A model generated the notes under the pieces. That model worked only from the letters and a program-made list of their open reading frames with translations. It made no database searches and was not told the origin of the DNA. From NCBI GenBank assembly GCA_028292825.1, contig JAQGLO010000105.1, forward strand, positions 1 through 47,051: a stretch of DNA of 47,051 nucleotides, in the 5' to 3' direction. A program made the position numbers and the translations under genes. Each line of letters starts with the position of its first letter. Position 1 is the stretch's first letter. Below, in pieces: positions 28,579 through 41,921 of the stretch. The stretch comes from Alphaproteobacteria bacterium. Lineage in GTDB: Bacteria > Pseudomonadota > Alphaproteobacteria > Micropepsales > Micropepsaceae.

Positions 28579-28725
28579 CAGTCCACGTCGCTCTCCACGC
28601 CGCATCGCTATAGGCTCGCGGCGGGGAAACGGATTCGGCTGGTGGACAAGGTGCGCAACAAGGGGGAGGGGGTACCCCTCCGTTCAGCAAAACAAGGATC
28701 AAGCGCTGGTGCCGGCTGGCGGCGC

Positions 28726-30549
28726 ATGGCCAGATATTGCTGTTTGCCGGCGCTGATGGCCGTGCCGGCCCTGGCCGCACCGCTGGATAGCGAATGGCCG
28801 ACCTATGGCCATGACTATGGCGAAAGCCGCTATTCGCCGCTGGCCCAGATCACCGCCGCCAATGTGGCGCAGCTGAAGCCGGCCTGGACCTATCACATGC
28901 GCACGCCGGACCGCGCCGCGCGGGGCTTCCTGGCGTCGGAGAACACGCCCATCGTGGTGGGCGGCGTGATGTATGTGAGTACGCCCTATGGCCGGGTGGT
29001 GGCGCTGGATGCCAGGACCGGCAGGCAGCGCTGGGCTTACGAAGTGCCGGGCACCGACAGCCCCGCTACGCGCGGGGTCGCCTATTGGCCCGGCAAGCAG
29101 CCCCAGATCGTGTTCGGCACCAAGGCCGGATTGTTGATCGCCCTGCATGCCGCAACCGGCGAACCGGTCGCTGGCTTCGGAACAGACGGCGTCTTGGACT
29201 TGCATACCAAGGCCGTGATGCAGGGCTATCCCAATGCCTTTCTGGGCCTGACCGCCGCGCCCACCATCTACAAGGACATTATCATCATCGGCTCGCGCAC
29301 CCAGGAGGCGCCGGCGCGCGGCGCGTCCGGCCAGGTGCGCGCCTTTGATGTGCGCACCGGCAAGGAGCTGTGGCACTTCAATGGCGTGCCGCAGCCGGGC
29401 GAACCCTTCCATGAGACCTGGGAGGCTAACACCTGGCACAAGCGCTCCGGCGTCAATGTCTGGACCAATGTGGTGCTGGATGAAAAGCGCGGCATCGCCT
29501 ATCTGCCCTTCGGCGCGCCGACCTTCGACCAGTCGGGCAATGACCGCAAAGGCCAGAGCCTGTTCGCCAATGCGCTGGTGGCGGTGGACGCGGCGACGGG
29601 AAAGTATCTCTGGCACTTCCAGGCGCTGCGCCATGACCTTTGGGACTATGACCTGCCGCTGACCACCTTGGTGGATGTGAAGAAGGATGGCCGCACCATT
29701 CCCGCCATTGCGACGATGAACAAGGGCAGCCTGCTGTTCCTGCTGGACCGCGTCACCGGCAAGCCGATTCATCCGCTGCATGACATTGATGTGCCCACCG
29801 ACACCGACATGATCGGCGACGTCGTATCGCCGACCCAGCCTGCATCGGTGACGCCGCCTTTGGGTCGCACGTCGTTCGCCATGAGCGAACTCTCAAGCCT
29901 GACCCCGCAACAGAAAGCCGGCTGCGAAAAACTGATCGCAGACCAGAAGGTTGTTGGTGCAAGCTATTTCCAGCCGCCGCGTGTCGACCACGCCATGGCG
30001 CGCTTTCCCGGGAACTGGGGCGGCATCGACTGGAGCCACGCCGCTTTTGATCGCAGGAACGGCCTGTACATCGTCAACACCAGCGAGATGGGCTCGCAGG
30101 AAATGATGATCCGCAAGCCCGACGGCAGCTATGACATGCGCTATGGCTATCAGTGGTTCTGGGACAAGGACAGCCACATGCCCTGCCAGAATCCACCCTG
30201 GGGCAAGCTGTATGGCATCAATGTCTCGACCGGCGCCATCGCCTGGGAGAGCGTGCTGGGCGTGACCGACGGCCTGGCCGACCCGAACACCGGGCGCCCC
30301 AATGTCGGTGGCCCCATCGTCACCGGCAGCGGGTTGGCCTTCATCGGCAGCACCGACGACAAGCGGTTGCGCGCCTTCGATACCAGAACGGGCAAGGAGC
30401 TGTGGACCTTCAAGCTGCCCGCTTCGCTCTACGGCACACCGCTGACCTATCGCGCCGGCGGCAAGCAGTATGTCGCCGCCGTCACCACCGGCGGCTTCTG
30501 GGGCGACCCGGCCGGCGCCGATGACGTCACGGCGTTCGCGCTGCCATGA
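28726..30549 (+). CDS. exported PQQ-dependent dehydrogenase, soluble glucose dehydrogenase-like
   Basis: A 607-aa periplasmic quinoprotein with an eight-bladed propeller. Signal peptide MARYCCLPALMAVPALA. Quinoprotein W-motif repeats include VVALDARTGRQRWAYEV, VRAFDVRTGKELWHFNG, VAVDAATGKYLWHFQAL and RAFDTRTGKELWTFKLP. The end GGFWGDPAGADDVTAFALP is typical of membrane glucose dehydrogenase relatives, but the five transmembrane helices of that enzyme are absent. Substrate (sugar or polyol) is not determinable. ATG at 28726 is preferred to GTG at 28642 because it yields the signal peptide. Its stop overlaps the next gene (ATGA). Confidence 0.9.
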   Translation: MARYCCLPALMAVPALAAPLDSEWPTYGHDYGESRYSPLAQITAANVAQLKPAWTYHMRTPDRAARGFLASENTPIVVGGVMYVSTPYGRVVALDARTGRQRWAYEVPGTDSPATRGVAYWPGKQPQIVFGTKAGLLIALHAATGEPVAGFGTDGVLDLHTKAVMQGYPNAFLGLTAAPTIYKDIIIIGSRTQEAPARGASGQVRAFDVRTGKELWHFNGVPQPGEPFHETWEANTWHKRSGVNVWTNVVLDEKRGIAYLPFGAPTFDQSGNDRKGQSLFANALVAVDAATGKYLWHFQALRHDLWDYDLPLTTLVDVKKDGRTIPAIATMNKGSLLFLLDRVTGKPIHPLHDIDVPTDTDMIGDVVSPTQPASVTPPLGRTSFAMSELSSLTPQQKAGCEKLIADQKVVGASYFQPPRVDHAMARFPGNWGGIDWSHAAFDRRNGLYIVNTSEMGSQEMMIRKPDGSYDMRYGYQWFWDKDSHMPCQNPPWGKLYGINVSTGAIAWESVLGVTDGLADPNTGRPNVGGPIVTGSGLAFIGSTDDKRLRAFDTRTGKELWTFKLPASLYGTPLTYRAGGKQYVAAVTTGGFWGDPAGADDVTAFALP

Positions 30550-31445
30550 ACAGGCTTGGCTTCGCCTATGCCGTCATCGCCGCGGCGTTGTTCGGCATCG
30601 GCGGTACCTTCGCGCAGTTTCTCTTCACCCAGCGCGGGGTGAACATGGACTGGCTGGTGACCATGCGGCTGCTGGTCTCCGGTGTGTTGCTGCTGGGCTT
30701 TGCGGGCCTGCGGGGCGGCAAAAAGGCCTTCGCCGTGTGGCGGGACTGGCCTTCGCTGATCCTGTTCGGCCTGTTCGGCATGCTGGGGGTGCAATACACT
30801 TACATGGCGGCGATCGCGGCATCCAACACCGCCACCGCCACGGTACTGCAATACACCGCCCCCGCCATGGTGGCGCTGTGGCTGACCGCCCGCCGCCGCC
30901 GGTTGCCGAACGCGCGCGAATTGGCGGCCATCGCGCTGGCGCTGGCGGGCACCTTCTTCCTGGTCACCCATGGCGATGCCGGCAAACTCAACATCTCGCC
31001 GGCAGCCTTGTGGTGGGGCATTGCGTCCGCGGTGACGGCTGCGTTCAACGCGATCCAGCCTGGCGCGCTGCTGAAGAAGCATGGCGCGGCGCTGGTGACG
31101 GGCTGGGGCATGCTGATCGGCGGCGCGGCGCTGTCCTTTCGCCATCCGCCCTGGATGGTGGAAGGCGTGTGGGACGCCAGGGCAATTGTCTTCGTTGCTT
31201 TCATTCTCTTGTTCGGCACCTTGCTGGCCTTCTATCTGTCGCTGAAGGCGCTGCAGATGATCGGGGCGCAGAAATCCAGCCTGCTGACCTGCGCCGAACC
31301 CCTTTCGACGGCGGTGTTGGCGGTGTGGTGGCTGGGCGTGTCCTTCGGGGCGATGGACTGGCTGGGCACGATATTGATCCTGGCGACCATCGTGCTGCTG
31401 TCGCGCGAACAGTCGGCGCAGACCCAGTCCGAGCATGTCACTTGA
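30546..31445 (+). CDS. EamA/DMT-family transporter
   Basis: A 299-aa permease with ten hydrophobic segments in two EamA repeats. The first repeat starts AYAVIAAALFGIGGTFAQF, and the second has SAVTAAFNAIQPGALL. CAEPLSTAVLAVWWLGV is the usual penultimate-helix signature. It overlaps the PQQ dehydrogenase stop by 4 bp (ATGA), so they are translationally coupled, perhaps for a substrate or product of the dehydrogenase. Its 3' end overlaps the convergent epimerase gene by 8 bp. Confidence 0.88.
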   Translation: MNRLGFAYAVIAAALFGIGGTFAQFLFTQRGVNMDWLVTMRLLVSGVLLLGFAGLRGGKKAFAVWRDWPSLILFGLFGMLGVQYTYMAAIAASNTATATVLQYTAPAMVALWLTARRRRLPNARELAAIALALAGTFFLVTHGDAGKLNISPAALWWGIASAVTAAFNAIQPGALLKKHGAALVTGWGMLIGGAALSFRHPPWMVEGVWDARAIVFVAFILLFGTLLAFYLSLKALQMIGAQKSSLLTCAEPLSTAVLAVWWLGVSFGAMDWLGTILILATIVLLSREQSAQTQSEHVT

Positions 31446-32322
31446 CGAGTTCGCCCAGTCCCTCCGCAAAGGAGATCTTCGGCGCCCAGCCCAGCGCCGC
31501 CTTGATGCGAAAAATATCGGCGCAGGTTGCCATGGAATCGTCGCGCCGGGCATCTGTCATGACCTGGTCCGGCGAGATCATATCCGCCAGTTCCTTGACC
31601 GAGATATTCGTCCCGCTGCCGACATTGAAGACCTGGCCATGCGCATCGCTCTCGTAGGCTGCGATATTCGCCGCCACGATATCGCGCACATGGATGAAGT
31701 CGCGCCGCTGGCTGCCGTCGCCATGGATCTCCAGCGTCTCGCCCGCCGCCGCCCGGCTGAGAAAGATGCCCAGCACCAGCGCATAGGCGCCCGCTTCCGG
31801 CTGGCGCGGGCCATAGGCGCTGAAATAGCGCAGCACCACCGACGGCAATCCGAAGTCGCGATCGAACAGCAGGCAATAGTCCTCGCCTGTCTTCTTGGTC
31901 AGGGCATAGATGTTGAGGAACTGCAGTTGCCCATCCTCGCGGTGCGGCGGCGGCAGGTTGCCATAGGCGGTGGCCGATCCGGCATAGAGGAAACGCTTCA
32001 CGCCCGCATCGCGCGCCGCCAGCAGCATGTTCTGGGTGCCGACAATGTTGGACTGGGTGCAAAGCTCGATCAAATCATTGGACGGGCCCGCGCGCGACAT
32101 GGCAGCGAGATGGAAGACACCGTCCATGCCGGCCACCGCACGGGCGCAGTCTGCCGCATCGCGGATGTCGCCATCCAGGAATTCGCAGGCACCCGGAACC
32201 CATTCGCGCCGGCCATAGGAAAGATTGTCCAGCACCCGCACCCCGTAGCCGCGCGCCAGCAGGCCCTCGCACAGATGGCTGCCAATGAAGCCGGCGCCGC
32301 CGGTGACCAACACGTTCTTCAT
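31438..32322 (-). CDS. NAD-dependent NDP-sugar epimerase/dehydratase (extended SDR)
   Basis: A 294-aa extended short-chain dehydrogenase acting on nucleotide sugars. NAD site GGAGFIGSH (8-16), then DIRD, HLAA, catalytic Ser in GSATAYG, and YALTK as the YxxxK pair. FSAYGPRQ and GDGSQRRDFIHVRDI are sugar-nucleotide loops typical of UDP-glucose or UDP-GlcNAc 4-epimerases and related dehydratases. Exact sugar unknown. It is the last gene of the five-gene operon, and its ATG overlaps the nucleotidyltransferase stop by 4 bp. It presumably reshapes the activated sugar used by the upstream glycosyltransferases. Confidence 0.9.
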   Translation of the reverse strand: MKNVLVTGGAGFIGSHLCEGLLARGYGVRVLDNLSYGRREWVPGACEFLDGDIRDAADCARAVAGMDGVFHLAAMSRAGPSNDLIELCTQSNIVGTQNMLLAARDAGVKRFLYAGSATAYGNLPPPHREDGQLQFLNIYALTKKTGEDYCLLFDRDFGLPSVVLRYFSAYGPRQPEAGAYALVLGIFLSRAAAGETLEIHGDGSQRRDFIHVRDIVAANIAAYESDAHGQVFNVGSGTNISVKELADMISPDQVMTDARRDDSMATCADIFRIKAALGWAPKISFAEGLGELVK

Positions 32323-33044
32323 GGCGCGGTTTTATACAGGCTGCGAAAGAAAGCCAGATCGTCCGGGGTGTTGATGCCGCGGGCTTCCGTGGCGTCGGCA
32401 ACCTCCAGCGGCGTGATCCGCCATCCCTGGGTTGCCAGGAAAGGCAGGAAGGGCAGGAAGTTGATCTCGCCTGTGGCGCCGCCGCGCGGGCTGGTGGCGC
32501 GATAGGCCTCCCATGCCGGCTTCAGGCCATCTGTGCCCAGCGCGAAGGTGCCGACATCGGAAAAGCCACCTGGCCTGGTGACGTCGCCCTCGCGGGTCTG
32601 CAATACCTTGGTCAGTGCCGCGCCCGAGAAAACATATTCGACATACGGTGCGGTCATGCGCGTGACCGGCAGCACGGCATTGCGCCCCGGCACAAGCGCG
32701 GCCAGGCTGCGCGACAGCGTGTCGGCGGACACGAACACCTGGTCGCCCCACACCACCAGGACGGCATCATGGCGCGACCAGATATCGTATCCCCGGAAGA
32801 TCGCGTCGCCCATGCCGGTGGGCGCGGGTTGAATGCTGGTCGAGACATTGGCCGGCAAAGCAGGAAACACCGACGCGCCCTCCGGTGACAGCACCAGGTG
32901 GATATGATTCACCAGCGGCGTCAGCCGGTCGTAAAGAACGGACCAGATGGTGCGACTGTCCGTCAGCGGCGTAAGTATCTTGGGCCCGTTACCGCCCAGC
33001 CGCGTGCCGCGTCCTGCCGCCGGAATGACCGCGCAGACGCTCAC
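32319..33044 (-). CDS. sugar-phosphate nucleotidyltransferase (GlmU N-domain-like)
   Basis: A 241-aa NTP-transferase (GT-A-like) enzyme. The N terminus VCAVIPAAGRGTRLGGNGPK holds the GxGTRx...PK nucleotide signature. VVWGDQVFV carries the metal-binding Asp, and GEINFLPFLPF with ARGINTPDDLAF resembles the late GEyy...GvN segments of GlmU/RmlA. It should condense a sugar (or other) phosphate with an NTP. It lacks the GlmU acetyltransferase half. GTG at 33044 overlaps the upstream gene stop as GTGA. Position beside a CofD-like protein recalls CofC, another member of this fold. Confidence 0.85.
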   Translation of the reverse strand: MSVCAVIPAAGRGTRLGGNGPKILTPLTDSRTIWSVLYDRLTPLVNHIHLVLSPEGASVFPALPANVSTSIQPAPTGMGDAIFRGYDIWSRHDAVLVVWGDQVFVSADTLSRSLAALVPGRNAVLPVTRMTAPYVEYVFSGAALTKVLQTREGDVTRPGGFSDVGTFALGTDGLKPAWEAYRATSPRGGATGEINFLPFLPFLATQGWRITPLEVADATEARGINTPDDLAFFRSLYKTAP

Positions 33045-34888
33045 AACAGCCCCATCAGGTTGCGCAGTCCGCGCCGGACCCGCCAATAGGGATCGGTGAA
33101 GCCGGAAAAGGTGCGGTACAGCACCGGCAGTTCGGCGATCTCCACGCCATGCGCGATCAGCTGGCGCACGATCGCCAGCGGCGCGTCACTGCCGCTGGCG
33201 GGCAATCCGGCCAGGCTGCGCCGCCGGAACACGCGCAAACCCGTCAGCGGATCGGACACGATGACGCCGGTGCGCAGATAGAAAAGCTGGCTGAGGAAAA
33301 ATGCCGCCACCTTGCCCAGCCGGTACAGCACGCGATGCTCGCCATACGCCGCCTGGATGGAAGTGATGAACTGCCGGCGGCTCTGGGTGCGCGAGCCGAA
33401 TACGCCGCCCAGCGAAGGCTGGCGTTCCATCAGCGCCAGGATCGCCTGCACGTCGCGGAAGCGATAGCCGCCATCGCCGGTCATCAGCACCAGATAGTCA
33501 GACACGCCATGCTTCAGCCAGTCGCGGAAATAGCCGCTTTCCGGGAACATGCCGTCCAGATGCACCGTGGCGATCGGACCCGCATCCGCCTGCGTGACAT
33601 GGTTGAGCGTGAGCTGCACCGGCACGCCGCCCCAGTCGGTCTCCAGGAATTCCTCCACGATCTCGTCGCCTGCGGCGGACCGGTTGTGGATATCGGCGAA
33701 TATCTCCAGCGACGTACCGGGAGCATCCGTATGCAAGGCCAGTGCCGCGTCCGCGACGGCGCTGCCGTTATGGACAGCGGGGCGGAATGGGGTGGCGAAG
33801 GCACCGCGCACGATCCTGGCGCCACGATAGCTATCGGTTGTCAGCGCACCGGCTGGAAGGCGGTCCGACGCCTTGTTGAGCAGGATGTCCGACACCGGCG
33901 CGCCATAGGCCAGCGCGCGGTCCACCAGGTCGCTGGCCGTCAGGCCCAGAACGTCGTTATCGCTGTCCAGGTTCATCACCAGCGCCTTTACCGGCGCAGG
34001 CGAGGCGGTCAATGCCATGCGGGCGATCCGGTAGCTGGGCAGCAGGGAGGAATGTTGCGTGCCGGGCCCGTAGAGAATGATGTCCGCCCGCGCCAGCGCC
34101 TCGGCGGCGGCCGGCGACAAATGCGGCAAGGCATCGCGGGCCGCCAAGAAGGCCTGCTTGCCCGAAAAATCCAGTGCTGTCAGGGCCTGCACGTCCGCGT
34201 CGGAGAGCGGCAACTGCAACAGGTACAGGTCGGTGATCGGCGCGGGCGATTGCGGGCCAACGATTTCGGCTTCACTGGCCAGCAGGCTTCCATCTTGTTT
34301 CAGGCCCACAAGAACACGGTTCTGCTCACTGCTGACATTCAGCAGCTGCGCGCGGCTTGCCACCAGATCGCCCACTTCGGCCGCGGCAGCATTGAAATCG
34401 TTGCCGCGCGCCAGATAGGCGCCCGCGAAAACAAGATTACCCAGCGAACAATCGCGGTAATCGAAAGCGCCGCCGGCCGCGTGATCGAAAAAGCGCCCCA
34501 GCAAGCCGCGCACCCGCAGCGACAAAAGCGGCGCCAGCTGCGCGAACCAGCTCTTCAGCGGTTCTTCCAGCAGCGTCGCGTCATTGTCGCGCGCAAAGCG
34601 CGCGAGGTTTTCGACCGCCGCCGCGCCGCCCGGCAGGCGATATTCCATCAGGTTTTTCAGGGCGTACTGAGCGTCGGAATAATTTCCCAGCAGATACGAC
34701 AGGTTCTTGCGGAAATCCGACGGCCCCAGCATGCCGGGAATGAAACTGCGCAGCGCCCCGGTCGACAGACCATCGTCATAGGCGTTGACCAGCAAGGTAA
34801 GGTCGATACCTGTCTGGCGCAGCAAAGCGCGAATGATGGTGGCGCTGCCGCGCCCGCCGCAGAACAGGACGACCCTTGTCGCGCTCAT
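33041..34888 (-). CDS. fusion of CofD/YvcK-like domain with GT2-like glycosyltransferase domain
   Basis: A 615-aa protein. Residues about 5-385 match the CofD/YvcK (UPF0052) fold: LFCGGRGSATIIRALL, NAYDDGLSTGALR, GPSDFRKNL, DCSLGNLVFAGAYLARGNDF, IILYGPGTQHSSLLPSYRI, and NLDSDNDVLGLTASDLV. Known members bind nucleotide-linked donors: CofD transfers phospholactyl from a GDP derivative, and YvcK binds UDP-sugars. Residues about 390-615 resemble a GT2/dolichol-phosphate-mannose-synthase domain: DYLVLMTGDGGYRFRD, DPLTGLRVFRR, ELPVLYRTFSG and a basic GLRNLMGLL end. The combination is unusual. ATG at 34888 overlaps the GT2 stop (ATGA); similarity starts immediately after it. Membrane association at the C terminus is possible. 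Confidence 0.85.
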   Translation of the reverse strand: MSATRVVLFCGGRGSATIIRALLRQTGIDLTLLVNAYDDGLSTGALRSFIPGMLGPSDFRKNLSYLLGNYSDAQYALKNLMEYRLPGGAAAVENLARFARDNDATLLEEPLKSWFAQLAPLLSLRVRGLLGRFFDHAAGGAFDYRDCSLGNLVFAGAYLARGNDFNAAAAEVGDLVASRAQLLNVSSEQNRVLVGLKQDGSLLASEAEIVGPQSPAPITDLYLLQLPLSDADVQALTALDFSGKQAFLAARDALPHLSPAAAEALARADIILYGPGTQHSSLLPSYRIARMALTASPAPVKALVMNLDSDNDVLGLTASDLVDRALAYGAPVSDILLNKASDRLPAGALTTDSYRGARIVRGAFATPFRPAVHNGSAVADAALALHTDAPGTSLEIFADIHNRSAAGDEIVEEFLETDWGGVPVQLTLNHVTQADAGPIATVHLDGMFPESGYFRDWLKHGVSDYLVLMTGDGGYRFRDVQAILALMERQPSLGGVFGSRTQSRRQFITSIQAAYGEHRVLYRLGKVAAFFLSQLFYLRTGVIVSDPLTGLRVFRRRSLAGLPASGSDAPLAIVRQLIAHGVEIAELPVLYRTFSGFTDPYWRVRRGLRNLMGLL

Positions 34889-35640
34889 GGCGTGGGTCGC
34901 GTGAGAATGCCCAGCCGCAACAGCAGCTGGCGCAGGGCGATGTAAAGCACGAACAGAAGCCGGTGCGCCGCACCGCGCACCAGCTTCATGCTGGAAACCC
35001 CGGTGGTGCGCGGACGATGTTCGATCGTCACTTCTGCCGGCGTGATGCCGCATTCCAGCAGCCGCGACGTGACTTCGGTGGAGTAGTTCATGCCGCGCGC
35101 CTCCAGCCCCAGCTTGCGCAGGGTGGGTCCCCATACCAGCTTGAAGGCGGAATTGAAGTCACGCATGCGGCTGCCATGCACCAGGTTGCAGACAACCCCG
35201 CTGGCCCAGCTGCCGAACTGGGCAAATGGCGCGTCCTTTTTCTGCCGGATGCCGATGGCGGCGCGGCTCTTGCCCAGCGCCGCCAGCATGTCGGGCAGGT
35301 TGGCAATGGGAAACTGCCCGTCGGAATCGATCAGGAGCACCCAGTCGCCGTGGGTCGCCGCGATGGCGAAATTCAGCGCTGCAGCCGCCCCCTGGTTCTG
35401 CTTGAAATGCAGTACCCGCAGTTGCGGATAGCTGAGCGCCAGGCGGTCCAGGATATCGCCGGTGCGATCCCTGCTGCCGTCATTGCAGATCACGATCTCG
35501 AATTCCGCCACCGCGTCGCAGGCGGACAGGAATGCGTGCCACTCTGCCAGTACAGCTTCGATACCTTCCGCCTCGTTATAGGCGGGCGCCGCCACCGACA
35601 GGCGGATCGGCGCAAGCAGCGTCGGTGCCGGATCGCTCAT
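34885..35640 (-). CDS. family 2 glycosyltransferase (polyprenol-phosphate sugar transferase-like)
   Basis: A 251-aa GT2 enzyme. SVAAPAYNEAEGIEAVLAEW is the donor-binding start, EIVICNDGSRDRTGDIL follows, and LIDSDGQFP carries the DxD motif. RDFNSAFKLVW and IEHRPRTTGVSSMKLVRG match DPM1/GtrB-like enzymes that load a sugar onto a lipid phosphate. The tail (HRLLFVLYIALRQLLLRLGIL) is amphipathic/hydrophobic but does not form the two transmembrane helices of GtrB. Starts and ends in 4-bp overlaps with its neighbours. Confidence 0.92.
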   Translation of the reverse strand: MSDPAPTLLAPIRLSVAAPAYNEAEGIEAVLAEWHAFLSACDAVAEFEIVICNDGSRDRTGDILDRLALSYPQLRVLHFKQNQGAAAALNFAIAATHGDWVLLIDSDGQFPIANLPDMLAALGKSRAAIGIRQKKDAPFAQFGSWASGVVCNLVHGSRMRDFNSAFKLVWGPTLRKLGLEARGMNYSTEVTSRLLECGITPAEVTIEHRPRTTGVSSMKLVRGAAHRLLFVLYIALRQLLLRLGILTRPTP

Positions 35641-37877
35641 ACCTGCTCCAGCATGGCGCCATAGGCGGCTTCCAGGTTGCAGGTGAAACGCGCAGTGTCG
35701 AACAGCGGTGTTTCGCGCACGACGACCAGCTTGTCACGGACGGCCTGTAACGCCTCCGGTTCTCGCGCAAACTTCAGTGCCAACGCCTCATATGCTGGCA
35801 GATCGGGTGCGATCAGTTCGGGCAAGCCCGCCGCTTGCAGGATGCTGGCGGCAACGCGTGCCGGAAACGAATGGCCCGGCGTGGTGACCAGCGGCAGCCC
35901 GGCCCACAGCGCATCGCTGGCGGTGGTGTGAGCATTGTAGGGCAGGGTGTCCAGGAACAAGTCTGCCAGTTGCTGCCGCGCCAGATGCTTTTGCGGGGTG
36001 GTGCGGGCGGCAAAGACCAGACGCGCGGGATCGATGCCGCACGTCTGTGCCTCGCGCTGCAGGTTGCTGCGAATGACGGCGTTTCCCTCCAGCAGCCACA
36101 ATACGCTGCCGTCCACGGTGTCCAGCAGCCGCATCCAGATGTCGAACAGCGGCGCGGTGATTTTCCAGTTGTGATTGAAGCAGCAGAACACAAAGCCTGT
36201 ATCGGGCAACCCTGCTTCGGCGCGGCTGGGCGGCGCCGGTATTTCGACCATAGTATCCGTCACCCACAGCGTGTCGGGCAGGGCAGCGATCTTCTCGTTG
36301 AAAAACTGTTCCTGATCAGTCGGCACCACCATCCGGTCCGCCACCAGCCAGTCGGTGAAATCGGTACCCGACGTGCCGGGATAGCCCATGTATTTCGCCT
36401 GCACGGGCGCCGGGCGATGCGCCAGCACCCAAGGGCGCGCGCCGCTGGTATGGCCGCCCAGGTCCACCGCGATATCGATCTCCCATTGCCGCAGCAGCTG
36501 CGCCACTTCGCGGTCGGTCTGGGTGCGGGCGTCGTGGAAGCGGTCGAATGCCCGCACCAGCCGGGCGCGCATGTCGCTGCCGTCATCGGGACCAAACGAG
36601 ACCGCTGTGATCTCGAACCGCTCCCGGTCATGCCGCTCGAACATTTCCACCGTCAGGGCGGCGGTGACATGCTGATGGAAGTCGGCGGACAGATAGGCCA
36701 CGCGAATCTTGTCATGCGCATATTTCTGGCCAGTCCACAGCGGCGGCTGCGGGCCCGGTCCGGCCTGGCGCACATAATTGCGCGAACAATGCAGTTGCAG
36801 GTCATTGTCGTCGTGATAGCCCATCAGCACGAAGGGCTGGATCACCGATTTTCCCGCCAGCACATCAGCTTTCAGCACATCGGCCAGTTCGGCGGTGCGC
36901 ACCCAGTCGCCCGTCATCAGCGCCGCATTGGCCAGTCCGCTCAGCGCATTGGGATGGGCCGGGTCAGCGGCCAGCGCCTGCTCATAGCTGACCAGCGCAT
37001 CTTCCGGCCGCCCCAGTTCGCTCAGCGCATTGCCGCGATTGTACAGCGCATCGGCAAAGGCGGGACGCAGCAGCACGGCGCGGTCGCAATCGGCCAGGGA
37101 TTCCGCAAACCGCTTCAGCGCGGCCAAGGCCACGGCGCGGTTGTTCAGCGCCTCGGCATAACCGGGCTGCAACACCAGCGCCCGATCATAGCTGGCGATT
37201 GCCTCGCCGGTGCGCTTCAGGTCGAACAGGATGATGCCGCGATTGTTCCAGGCTTCCGCAAAGCCCGCATGCAGCGCCACCGCCCGTTCGGCATTGGCCA
37301 GCGCCTCTGCGAGCCGCTTTACAGCCTTCAGGGTGAGGGCGCGGTTGTTCCACACATCGGGAAATTGCGGCGCCATGGCCAACGCCCGGTCATAACTGGC
37401 AAGGGCCTCGTCATGCCGCCCCAGGTCCGACAGGATCACCCCGTGATTGGAATGCGCCTCGGCAAAACCCGGATTCATCTTCAGCGCCGCATCGCTGGCC
37501 GCCAGCGCCTCATCAAGCCGCCCCAGGTCGCGCAAGACCTGGGCGCGCTTGGCCAGGGCGGCGACATAATCCGGCTTCACCGCCAGCGCCCGGTCATAGC
37601 TGGCCAATGCCTCGGCGAACCGCCCCAGCGTCTTCAGCACATTGCCATGGTTTGACAGCATCTCCGGCGCGTCGGGCTTCAGCTTCAGCGCCGCCCCGAT
37701 CAGTTCCAGCGCCTCGCCGTTACGTCCCTGCTGCGCCCGCACCACGCCCAACAGATGCGGTGCTGCGGCTTCTCGCGGTGCCGCCCGCATCACTTCCACA
37801 TACAGCCGCTCCGCATCCGCCAGGTTGCCGGTCTGGTGGAAGGCGATGGCCTGGCTGAGGGCGCTTTGCGGATTCAT
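35637..37877 (-). CDS. TPR-containing O-linked GlcNAc transferase-type glycosyltransferase (GT41)
   Basis: A 746-aa protein and first gene of the glycan operon. Residues about 3-345 comprise nine TPRs and a degenerate tenth (e.g. GRFAEALASYDRALAVKP). The GT41 catalytic half follows: YLSADFHQHVTA with a conserved His, DLGGHTSGARPWVLAHRPAP, KYMGYPGTSGTDF, FNHNWKITAPLFDIW with a donor-contacting Lys, and TTASDALWAGLPLVTTPGHS. Family members add sugars to Ser/Thr/Asn of proteins in the cytoplasm, with the TPRs choosing substrates. ATG at 37877 is 43 bp after tRNA-Ser on the same strand. The target protein is not evident. Confidence 0.93.
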   Translation of the reverse strand: MNPQSALSQAIAFHQTGNLADAERLYVEVMRAAPREAAAPHLLGVVRAQQGRNGEALELIGAALKLKPDAPEMLSNHGNVLKTLGRFAEALASYDRALAVKPDYVAALAKRAQVLRDLGRLDEALAASDAALKMNPGFAEAHSNHGVILSDLGRHDEALASYDRALAMAPQFPDVWNNRALTLKAVKRLAEALANAERAVALHAGFAEAWNNRGIILFDLKRTGEAIASYDRALVLQPGYAEALNNRAVALAALKRFAESLADCDRAVLLRPAFADALYNRGNALSELGRPEDALVSYEQALAADPAHPNALSGLANAALMTGDWVRTAELADVLKADVLAGKSVIQPFVLMGYHDDNDLQLHCSRNYVRQAGPGPQPPLWTGQKYAHDKIRVAYLSADFHQHVTAALTVEMFERHDRERFEITAVSFGPDDGSDMRARLVRAFDRFHDARTQTDREVAQLLRQWEIDIAVDLGGHTSGARPWVLAHRPAPVQAKYMGYPGTSGTDFTDWLVADRMVVPTDQEQFFNEKIAALPDTLWVTDTMVEIPAPPSRAEAGLPDTGFVFCCFNHNWKITAPLFDIWMRLLDTVDGSVLWLLEGNAVIRSNLQREAQTCGIDPARLVFAARTTPQKHLARQQLADLFLDTLPYNAHTTASDALWAGLPLVTTPGHSFPARVAASILQAAGLPELIAPDLPAYEALALKFAREPEALQAVRDKLVVVRETPLFDTARFTCNLEAAYGAMLEQV

Positions 37878-37919
37878 CGGGGCCAAGTCTGGGGGTGGGG
37901 CCGGTGCGTGTCGAGGTCG

Positions 37920-38009
37920 TGGCGGATGGGGTGAGATTCGAACTCACGGTAGCGTTGCCGCTACGCCAGTTTTCAAGACTGGAGCCTTAAACCACTCGGC
38001 CACCCATCC
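37920..38009 (-). tRNA. tRNA-Ser (TGA)
   Basis: A 90-nt class II tRNA on the minus strand. Acceptor GGATGGG/CCCATCC, encoded CCA, D-arm GGCCGAGTGGTTTAAGGC. Anticodon loop has TGA within CTTGAAA. Long variable arm GTAGCGGCAACGCTAC. T-arm GTGAGTTCGAATCTCAC. The glycan operon begins just downstream and could be co-transcribed. Confidence 0.96.
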
Positions 38010-39072: not shown

Positions 39073-40224
39073 ATGTTCCGCCGCCTTGCACTTGCCCTGT
39101 CCATCCTCGGCGCGTTTGCCTTGCCCGCACAGGCCGTGATCGACACCAGCGCCGAACATGCGCTGCTGATGGACGCGGCAACCGGCCAGGTCCTGTGGCA
39201 GAAGGACGGCATGTCACCGATGCCGCCGGCTTCGATGTCCAAGCTGATGACCATCGACCTGCTGTTCAGCCGCATCGCGGACGGCCGCGTGAAGCTGGAG
39301 GACACCTTTCCGGTGTCGGAACGCGCCTGGCGCACGCAGGGCTCCAAGATGTTCGTGGAACTGGGCTCTCGCATCACAATCGAGAACCTGATCCGCGGCA
39401 TCATCATCCAGTCGGGCAACGATGCCTGCGTCACGGTGGCCGAAGGCGTCGGCGGCACCGTGGAAGGCTTTGTCGAACTGATGAACAAGCGGGCGAAGGA
39501 GCTGGGACTGAAACAGTCCACCTTCGTCAATCCCGATGGCCTGCCGGACCCGCCGGGCCAGCTGATGAGCGCGCTCGACCTGGCCAAGCTGTCGCGCCAC
39601 ATCATCACCACCTATCCGCAGCTCTATCATTATTTCAGCGAGCGCGAATTCGTCTGGCACAATATCCACCAGCCCAACCGCGACCTGGTGCTGGGCTCGC
39701 TGCCGGGCGCCGACGGCCTGAAGACCGGCCATACCGATGCCGCCGGCTATGGCATCACCATCTCCGCCAAGCGCGGCGACCAGCGCCTGATCCTGGTGCT
39801 GAACGGCCTGCGCTTCCCGCAGTACAACAATGACTATTTCCCCAACATCAAGCGCGCCGAGGAAGCAGGCCGGGTGATGGATCTGGCTTTCCGCGAATTC
39901 CGTTCCTATCCGGTTTTCGCCACCAATCAGATCATCGGCAATGCCCCGGTCGCGGGCGGCGCCCAGCCCGGTGTGGCGGTGACGGCCGCCAGGCCGCTCA
40001 ACGTCACCATGCAGGTGGATTCCAAGGCCGGCATGAAGACCCAGCTGAAATACGATCTTGGCCTGGCCGCGCCCATCCATGTCGGCCAGAAGGTCGGCGT
40101 GGTGGTGGTGACGGCGCCGGAATTCCCGCCGCTGACGGTGCCGGTCTTTGCCGCGAATTCGGTGGCGCAGGTTGGCATCTTCGGCCGCATGACCAATGCC
40201 GTGAAGCATCTCTGGAAAAAATGA
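39073..40224 (+). CDS. dacA: D-alanyl-D-alanine carboxypeptidase (PBP5/6-type)
   Basis: A 383-aa serine DD-carboxypeptidase (S11) that trims peptidoglycan pentapeptides. Signal peptide about 1-21. Active-site S54-M-S-K (ASMSKLM), the SGN motif (QSGNDACVTV) and KTG in GLKTGHTDAAGYG are all intact. A C-terminal beta domain (about 285-370) precedes a short basic amphipathic tail (FGRMTNAVKHLWKK), which anchors such enzymes to the membrane. Overlaps tmk by 4 bp (ATGA). Confidence 0.95.
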   Translation: MFRRLALALSILGAFALPAQAVIDTSAEHALLMDAATGQVLWQKDGMSPMPPASMSKLMTIDLLFSRIADGRVKLEDTFPVSERAWRTQGSKMFVELGSRITIENLIRGIIIQSGNDACVTVAEGVGGTVEGFVELMNKRAKELGLKQSTFVNPDGLPDPPGQLMSALDLAKLSRHIITTYPQLYHYFSEREFVWHNIHQPNRDLVLGSLPGADGLKTGHTDAAGYGITISAKRGDQRLILVLNGLRFPQYNNDYFPNIKRAEEAGRVMDLAFREFRSYPVFATNQIIGNAPVAGGAQPGVAVTAARPLNVTMQVDSKAGMKTQLKYDLGLAAPIHVGQKVGVVVVTAPEFPPLTVPVFAANSVAQVGIFGRMTNAVKHLWKK

Positions 40225-40865: not shown

Positions 40866-41921
40866 ATGGCCAAGCGTTCCGCCGCCCCCGAACCCAACGA
40901 CAGCGACCGCGTGGAAGGCTTCGCCCATCCGCGCGAAAACCTCGATCTGCTCGGTCAGGATATCGCCCTGGGCCGGGCCGCGCGCGCCCTGCGGGCCGGC
41001 CGCCCGCCCAGCGCCTGGTTGATCACCGGCGCGCCCGGTACCGGCAAGGCGACACTGGCCTATCGTATCGCGCGCTATCTGCTGGCCCATGGCGCCACCG
41101 ATGCCGGCCCGGAAGATCTTGCTGTGCCGCTGGACGATCCCGCCGCGCGCCAGGTGACGGCGCAATCCCATCCCGGCCTGCTGGTGCTGAAGCGCGCCAT
41201 CAATCCGCGCACCGGCAAGCTGATGACCGTGCTGTCGGTGGACGAGATCCGCCGCCTGTCCGATTTCTTCGGCATGACCAGCGGCGCCGGCGGCTGGCGT
41301 GTCGCCATCGTCGATACCGCCGACGACATGAACGACAATGCCGCCAACGCCCTGCTGAAGATGCTGGAAGAGCCGCCGGGCAACGCCATGCTGTTGCTGC
41401 TGTCCAACACCCCGGGCCGGTTGCTTCCCACCATTCGTTCGCGCTGCCAGCGGCTGGATTTGCGGCCGCTGCCCGATGCCGTGCTGGAAAAGCTGCTGGC
41501 ACATCATCTGCCGGACATGAGCGCATCGGAGCGCGCCGCCCTGGCGCGGCTGTCGGGCGGCAGCATCGGCGCGGCACTGACCCTGGCGACAGGCGAGGGC
41601 GGGGCGCTGGCGCAAGAGGCCGACCGCCTGATCGACCAGGCCCGCGATCCCGATCTGCTGGCGCTGCTGGCGCTGGGCGAAAAGCTGGGACGGATGCGCG
41701 ATGGTCTCGACAATTTCGGCAACTTCCTCACCGAGGCGCTGGCCGACCGCATCCGCGCCAAGGCGCACAGTGGCGCGGGTGGGCTCGATCGCTGGGTCGC
41801 GCTGCTCGGCCGGCTGGAACAGGGCTTCAGTCGCGCCACCGGCCTGAACCTAGAGCCGCGCCAGGCGGTTCTGACGGCGGTGCGCGACCTGTCTGGCGTT
41901 GCGCGGCGTGGGACGCTGTGA
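40866..41921 (+). CDS. holB: DNA polymerase III subunit delta'
   Basis: Clamp-loader delta' subunit (351 aa). AAA+ fold with P-loop LITGAPGTGKATLAYRIAR. HPGLLVLKRAINPRTGKLMT is the region typical of alphaproteobacterial HolB. IVDTADDMNDNAANALLKML EEP-type and SNTPGRLLPTIRSRCQRL are the delta'-specific motifs (SRC). C-terminal collar domain follows. It delivers the beta clamp to DNA as part of the replisome. Its TGA overlaps the tatD ATG by one base. In many relatives metG lies here; it does not in this window. Confidence 0.95.
   Translation: MAKRSAAPEPNDSDRVEGFAHPRENLDLLGQDIALGRAARALRAGRPPSAWLITGAPGTGKATLAYRIARYLLAHGATDAGPEDLAVPLDDPAARQVTAQSHPGLLVLKRAINPRTGKLMTVLSVDEIRRLSDFFGMTSGAGGWRVAIVDTADDMNDNAANALLKMLEEPPGNAMLLLLSNTPGRLLPTIRSRCQRLDLRPLPDAVLEKLLAHHLPDMSASERAALARLSGGSIGAALTLATGEGGALAQEADRLIDQARDPDLLALLALGEKLGRMRDGLDNFGNFLTEALADRIRAKAHSGAGGLDRWVALLGRLEQGFSRATGLNLEPRQAVLTAVRDLSGVARRGTL

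Follow-up and report, generated by a model that had tools for sequence, protein, structure and literature searches.

We analysed a stretch of 47,051 nucleotides (the window) from a bacterium of the alphaproteobacterial family Micropepsaceae (contig JAQGLO010000105.1), which carries a cassette of glycan genes built around a CofD-GT2 fusion. Five intact reading frames lie in a tight array on the minus strand at 31438-37877, and the order of transcription is TPR-GT41, GT2, CofD-GT2, a MobA-like nucleotidyltransferase (NTP) and an SDR epimerase. The first gene (35637..37877) encodes an OGT-like protein glycosyltransferase of 746 amino acids with TPRs and a GT41 domain (Pfam, 268 bits). Its start was placed at ATG 37877, and an alternative TTG at 37886 is possible. 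The second (34885..35640) encodes a GT2 of the polyprenyl-phosphate type (Pfam GT2, 93 bits) with the motifs CNDGS and DSDGQFP and, by hydropathy, one C-terminal hydrophobic helix. In the CofD-GT2 protein (33041..34888) a CofD/GlmR-type domain at about residues 1-335 is followed by a GT2-fold domain with altered donor motifs at about residues 389-615, the latter seen in a structure model; the frame is open upstream to ATG 35134, and it is the start at 34888 that relatives conserve. The NTP gene (32319..33044) has a GTG start and matches Pfam NTP_transf_3 with 64 bits. The last gene (31438..32322) encodes an SDR nucleotide-sugar epimerase similar to GalE, WbpP and WbgU (Pfam Epimerase, 197 bits).

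Neighbouring genes are joined by four exact 4-bp overlaps (35637-35640, 34885-34888, 33041-33044 and 32319-32322), and the start/stop coupling described in an earlier note on this DNA was thus confirmed to the nucleotide. The same note took the coupling as a sign of defined stoichiometry. This argument is weak, since 4-bp overlaps on their own are ordinary in the window: three more join neighbouring genes at 30546-30549, 40221-40224 and 41918-41921.

Domain structure of the CofD-GT2 fusion

The CofD domain of the fusion scores 79.1 bits, with a Pfam cut-off of 30 (PF01933). A profile search against the PDB returned UPF0052/YvcK alone at E below 0.1. Foldseek comparison of the AlphaFold (AF2) model, which has a predicted local distance difference test score (pLDDT) of 82.7, also placed UPF0052 first (2o2z, E 1e-14, template-modelling score 0.81 by target length), followed by ArnC (E 3e-7), FbiA (E 4e-7), DPM synthase (E 2e-6) and GtrB (E 5e-6). 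CofD and FbiA are therefore not the nearest solved relatives, as UPF0052/YvcK ranks first by both profile and fold. From this ranking, the N-terminal domain is predicted to be of the GlmR/YvcK type, a family that binds UDP-sugars, and not of the F420 type; the C-terminal domain is modelled with the fold of a polyprenyl-phosphate glycosyltransferase. With 60.7 bits against a cut-off of 196 for the YvcK family TIGR01826 in NCBIfam, the fusion is a relative of YvcK that is not filed as a member. Its best NCBIfam match, the GAK-system CofD-like protein TIGR04357, reached 67 bits, below the cut-off of 340, and the annotated example of that family has a different neighbourhood.

The earlier note held that a CofD-like domain has no standard place in glycosylation. 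We likewise found no described pathway; a sugar-nucleotide role is nevertheless less strange than it seemed, since the studied GlmR, a regulator of GlmS in Bacillus, binds UDP-GlcNAc (PMC7525490). GlmR/YvcK shares the fold and the GGxG, DDG and LGN-type motifs with the N-terminal domain of the fusion, including the motifs that hold its invariant residues D38/D39 and D58. The fusion appears to lack the Arg that BH3568 has in its RH motif and that presumably corresponds to B. subtilis R301. The fusion also differs from GlmR/YvcK in its GT2-fold domain and in its position within a glycan cassette.

Pfam detected no second GT2 domain in the fusion of the window, whereas the structure model shows one. 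According to a motif alignment, this domain has lost PxYNE, DDGS and the first Asp of DXD (which reads TGD) in the window subtype, and it retains the invariant second Asp (D472), GSR and SDPxxG(F/L)R. Within the genus the altered domain shows the same degree of conservation as the GlmR domain (77% and 76%), so it is under selection and not a decaying remnant. It shares its fold with ArnC, GtrB and DPM synthase but lacks their donor motifs, and no membrane segments were predicted in the fusion. In contrast, the classical motifs CNDGS and DSDGQFP are conserved in the alignment of the standalone GT2.

The match to FbiA brings in a different reading of the domain as a CofD-type transferase. The MobA-like enzyme would then make a nucleoside diphosphate-activated compound (NDP-X), from which the CofD domain would move X-phosphate to a hydroxyl group with release of the nucleoside monophosphate, so that a glycan or lipid would end up carrying a sugar or acid in phosphodiester linkage. 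CofD/FbiA, the coenzyme F420 transferase, belongs to the same Pfam family, and the CofC/CofD pair (PMC8764529) has a counterpart in the MobA-like NTP that lies next to a CofD-family protein. Asp45 and Asp57 of FbiA bind the catalytic metal (PMC7253369), and D38/D39 and D58 of the fusion stand in matching motifs and would be their equivalents. In addition, a clostridial CofD-family gene without a GT2 domain keeps a HAD gene and adjoins HIT-like and GT28-like genes. However, the profile and the fold are far nearer to GlmR/YvcK, which has the same Asp motifs and is not known to have transferase activity. The sequence profile of the fusion does not reach CofD structures, CofD/FbiA has no GT2 domain, and the NTP is nearest to GlmU by profile and gave no CofC match in Pfam or the PDB profile search. 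We consider this reading unlikely. A role in F420 synthesis itself was unsupported by the profile or fold ranking; no F420 genes were recognised in the cassettes, and no genome-wide search for them was made.

Distribution of the cassette

The CofD-GT2 protein had matches in 12 of the 100 genomes searched. Ten are strong orthologues from the same genus, the window genome included, and the remaining two matches are weak and partial. Wherever the contig is long enough, the order of the cassette is identical in related species at about 69-84% protein identity, and the 4-bp junctions are mostly retained. Across loci, the cassette genes have correlated distance matrices (r 0.87-0.97). Order, junctions and correlated distances agree in showing that the cassette is more than a chance assembly, and they support co-inheritance as expected from the single pathway that had been suggested for the five genes.

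Five relatives (L016, L017, L018, L019 and L022) carry an additional HAD gene, which is beta-phosphoglucomutase-like, between CofD-GT2 and NTP. The corresponding site in the window is the CofD-GT2/NTP junction at 33041..33044, where the gene is absent. As HAD is also present in most loci from other phyla, it looks ancestral, with several losses on the tree, one of them in the window genome. No orthologue was found elsewhere in that genome, which is 82% complete, and relocation of the gene within it was therefore rejected.

When one genome of each species was scanned, at least 29 loci of the cassette core were recovered, a lower bound since the scan was driven by two short peptide patterns. The genes for GT2, CofD-GT2, HAD, NTP and often SDR occur in the same order and without GT41 in Legionellales, Binatota/Deltaproteobacteria, Armatimonadota, Myxococcota and Bradyrhizobium; the Legionellales loci lack HAD. 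The locus of the soil carrier Bradyrhizobium sp. CSA207, for example, comprises GT2, CofD-GT2, HAD and NTP, and no GT41 was seen in it. Hence the gene order is not unique to one genome. The five-gene unit of the earlier note is not the basic form of the cassette: the core consists of GT2, CofD-GT2, HAD, NTP and usually SDR, HAD being lost here and GT41 being an addition specific to the lineage. The distribution is wide yet rare: among 385 sampled genomes of the class there was one match besides the window genome, and it was weak and confined to the CofD part. The cassette tree is patchy across phyla, which suggests that the whole set spread horizontally; some of its branches are long and cannot be placed with confidence. 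Carriage on plasmids was rejected, as we found solely distant CofD-like proteins with different neighbourhoods.

A wider profile search added ten Pseudomonadota genomes with a sister subtype of the cassette. The loci of this second subtype (L056 from Myxococcales, L057 and L087-L096) belong to other Pseudomonadota families and Myxococcota, and CofD-GT2, HAD, NTP and a standalone GT2 occur together in nearly every sufficiently long locus. They are joined by a B12-type radical-SAM enzyme and an S-adenosylmethionine-dependent methyltransferase, and in one group also by a protein with several transmembrane segments. The models nearest to the radical-SAM protein are B12-binding radical-SAM enzymes, with scores far under the cut-off. 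In the one example tested, Pfam recognises GT2 in the C-terminal domain of the second-subtype CofD-GT2 (69 bits), and the fused domain matches the AglJ and PpgS models under their cut-offs.

The clostridial CofD-family gene mentioned above was found at L055:9108-11882 and L058 (Clostridium sp. KNHs205, Anaerocolumna). It lies downstream of a gene for about 3000 residues and is accompanied by HAD, a HIT-like protein with the motif LNHFHTQV and a GT28-like gene. Relatives are rare, as 1 of 341 genomes gave a match, namely the query genome itself. In a metagenome-assembled genome of Legionellaceae, a tandem pair of multi-transmembrane proteins with 85% similarity lies upstream of the cassette (L041:5360-9193).

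The TPR-GT41 gene

The closest solved relatives of the cassette GT41 are XcOGT and human OGT. It shares with them the combination of TPR and GT41 domains, and the XcOGT catalytic motifs are conserved (the motif His, the Lys of nhnwK and the NAHTTASD block). GT41 paralogues are expanded in the genus, with about eight matches in the window genome and eleven in G014. Among congeners the orthologue of the cassette GT41 (79-82% identity in the GT domain) was found only in cassette genomes and in G036, where GT41-GT2 is located at a contig end; other paralogues reach 61% or less. The agreement between cassette genomes and GT41 orthologues has a chance of about 3e-6 when shared ancestry is ignored. 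GT41, an addition of this lineage, is absent from the core loci in other phyla. A TPR-GT41 gene also adjoins CofD-GT2 in L088 and L095 of the second subtype, so that such genes joined the cassette twice, independently.

Further TPR-GT41 genes lie on other contigs of the window genome (L069-L073), some of them in tandem, and L070:6537-10046 has two GT41 matches. None of the paralogous loci inspected had cassette genes, and they were rejected as extra copies of the cassette. Anti-phage defence was likewise rejected, as the PADLOC matches, to TPR and PrimPol, were all weak and fell in the repeat region.

These observations bear on cytosolic protein O-glycosylation, in which GT41 would add the first sugar to targets chosen by the TPRs, and GT2 and CofD-GT2 would extend or modify it, a reading that comes near to the view of the earlier note. 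Such a pathway would fit the first place of GT41 in the operon, its conserved 4-bp overlap with GT2, its intact catalytic motifs, the presence of an orthologue in every cassette genome checked and the second, separate coupling. On the other hand, many core loci lack GT41, the other TPR-GT41 paralogues in the genome do not lie beside such genes, and both the GT2 and the fused domain resemble transferases of lipid-linked sugars and not those of protein chains. Flagellin is the known target of Caulobacter FlmG, an alphaproteobacterial protein glycosyltransferase of the cytosol that binds its target through a TPR domain (PMC7591256). The window genome itself has flagellin, but none was detected in the cassette genomes G014 (100% complete), G041 (98%) and G017 (89%). 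A flagellin target is therefore not needed, and flagellin glycosylation was rejected as a general role of the cassette GT41. Unlike OGT/XcOGT and FlmG, this enzyme is locked to CofD-GT2; no pseudaminic-acid genes were recognised in the cassette, and no NeuB-type gene was recognised in the cassette loci, no genome-wide search having been made. Overall, protein O-glycosylation has a small chance of being the main function of the cassette.

A candidate pathway and its relation to known systems

The relatives of the remaining enzymes fit the synthesis of an epimerised nucleotide sugar. In PDB profile searches the NTP is nearest to GlmU (E 6e-19, N-terminal domains), the SDR to UDP-sugar 4-epimerases such as WbpP and WbgU (E 7e-60), and HAD to phosphosugar phosphatases and mutases. 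In several other lineages a GtrA gene (L047) and multi-transmembrane proteins resembling GT-C enzymes lie beside the cassette, suggesting a lipid-linked product.

We therefore propose, with confidence that is evenly divided, that this is a horizontally mobile glycan cassette that makes a nucleotide sugar and loads it onto a polyprenyl-phosphate carrier through the GT2/CofD-GT2 pair. The HAD enzyme, or here perhaps a housekeeping substitute, and the GlmU-like NTP would produce the nucleotide sugar, which the SDR would epimerise. GT2 and CofD-GT2 would then act as a pair and move the sugar from the nucleotide onto polyprenyl-phosphate or a similar lipid. Given a canonical GT2 next to an altered GT2 domain, we infer a donor-holding GT2 with a non-canonical partner whose altered domain would aid the acceptor side. 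The GlmR-like domain would bind the nucleotide sugar, either as a donor-feeding or as a feedback-sensing module. In other phyla the adjoining membrane glycosyltransferases would consume the product; the window genus gained a TPR-GT41 protein glycosyltransferase of the cytosol, which probably draws on the same nucleotide-sugar pool.

Several observations weigh against this pathway. Since GT41 enzymes use nucleotide sugars and not lipid-linked ones, the lipid model leaves the GT41 gene unexplained. No standalone GT2 was seen in four Binatota-like loci, and a strict GT2/CofD-GT2 pairing is thus not universal. In the window genus no GT-C or GtrA gene was recognised beside the cassette; GtrA genes exist elsewhere in these genomes. 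The GT-C assignment, based on the number of transmembrane segments and an acidic-loop motif, is weak: the protein had no Pfam, NCBIfam or PDB profile match, and its AlphaFold model, with a pLDDT of 40, was unusable.

The cassette might instead be an ordinary surface-polysaccharide set that provides a UDP-GalNAc-like sugar for an envelope polymer, with a GlmR domain that merely senses UDP-GlcNAc and no new mechanism. Every piece is indeed a common glycan enzyme, and GlmR is a known UDP-GlcNAc sensor (PMC7525490). A simple sensor would, however, leave unexplained why the domain is fused to GT2, why the active site of the latter is altered and why HAD and NTP are linked to the fusion in both deep subtypes, and the loci inspected showed no recognisable genes of the Wzx/Wzy type next to the cassette. 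We regard this explanation as quite improbable. At the other extreme, the CofD/GlmR domain could itself catalyse the transfer of a sugar phosphate from a nucleotide sugar, with the GT2 domain adapted to a donor or acceptor of a new kind. This soluble enzyme, mobile across several phyla and twice coupled to OGT-type enzymes, would then provide an undescribed route to a lipid- or protein-bound glycan, which we think is doubtful.

Literature searches returned no description of the cassette and no characterised glycosylation cluster that its genes match. What comes closest is an island of Mycoplasma fermentans that is putatively mobile and is mentioned as a candidate for the synthesis of a glucofuranose donor (PMC11658790). 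Compared by description only, it resembles the cassette in that a CofD-family gene lies close to genes for an NDP nucleotidyltransferase and for a synthase of the GT2 family; it is flanked by transposases and tied to a capsule polymer. The island differs in that its CofD gene is broken up into pseudogenes and its GT2 is a synthase of the membrane; neither an SDR nor a GT41 gene is mentioned, and its pathway is not worked out. The families themselves are known. What appears to be undescribed is the way in which they are combined, the fusion to a GT2 domain with altered motifs and the existence of two subtypes. If the proposed pathway is correct, the cassette would represent a new class of glycan cassette, and a part in glycosylation would be added to the roles of the GlmR/CofD fold. 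The fusion with its altered and strongly conserved GT2 domain amounts to a testable claim of a two-protein glycosyltransferase, and the repeated coupling to TPR-GT41 bears on the donor sugars and targets of bacterial OGT-like enzymes.

To the right of the operon and on its strand lies a tRNA-Ser(TGA) (37920-38009), whose end is about 43 bp away from the GT41 ATG on the upstream side. None was found at the corresponding place in the fetched loci of relatives, and synteny therefore seems to break on this flank. On the left, genes for EamA, a PQQ dehydrogenase, a methyltransferase and a deacetylase are often common to the loci of relatives. Here the protein resembling pyrroloquinoline quinone (PQQ)-dependent dehydrogenases is encoded at 28642-30549, scores well under the NCBIfam cut-offs and adjoins the EamA transporter. 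Both genes are convergent with the cassette and are kept there in several relatives.

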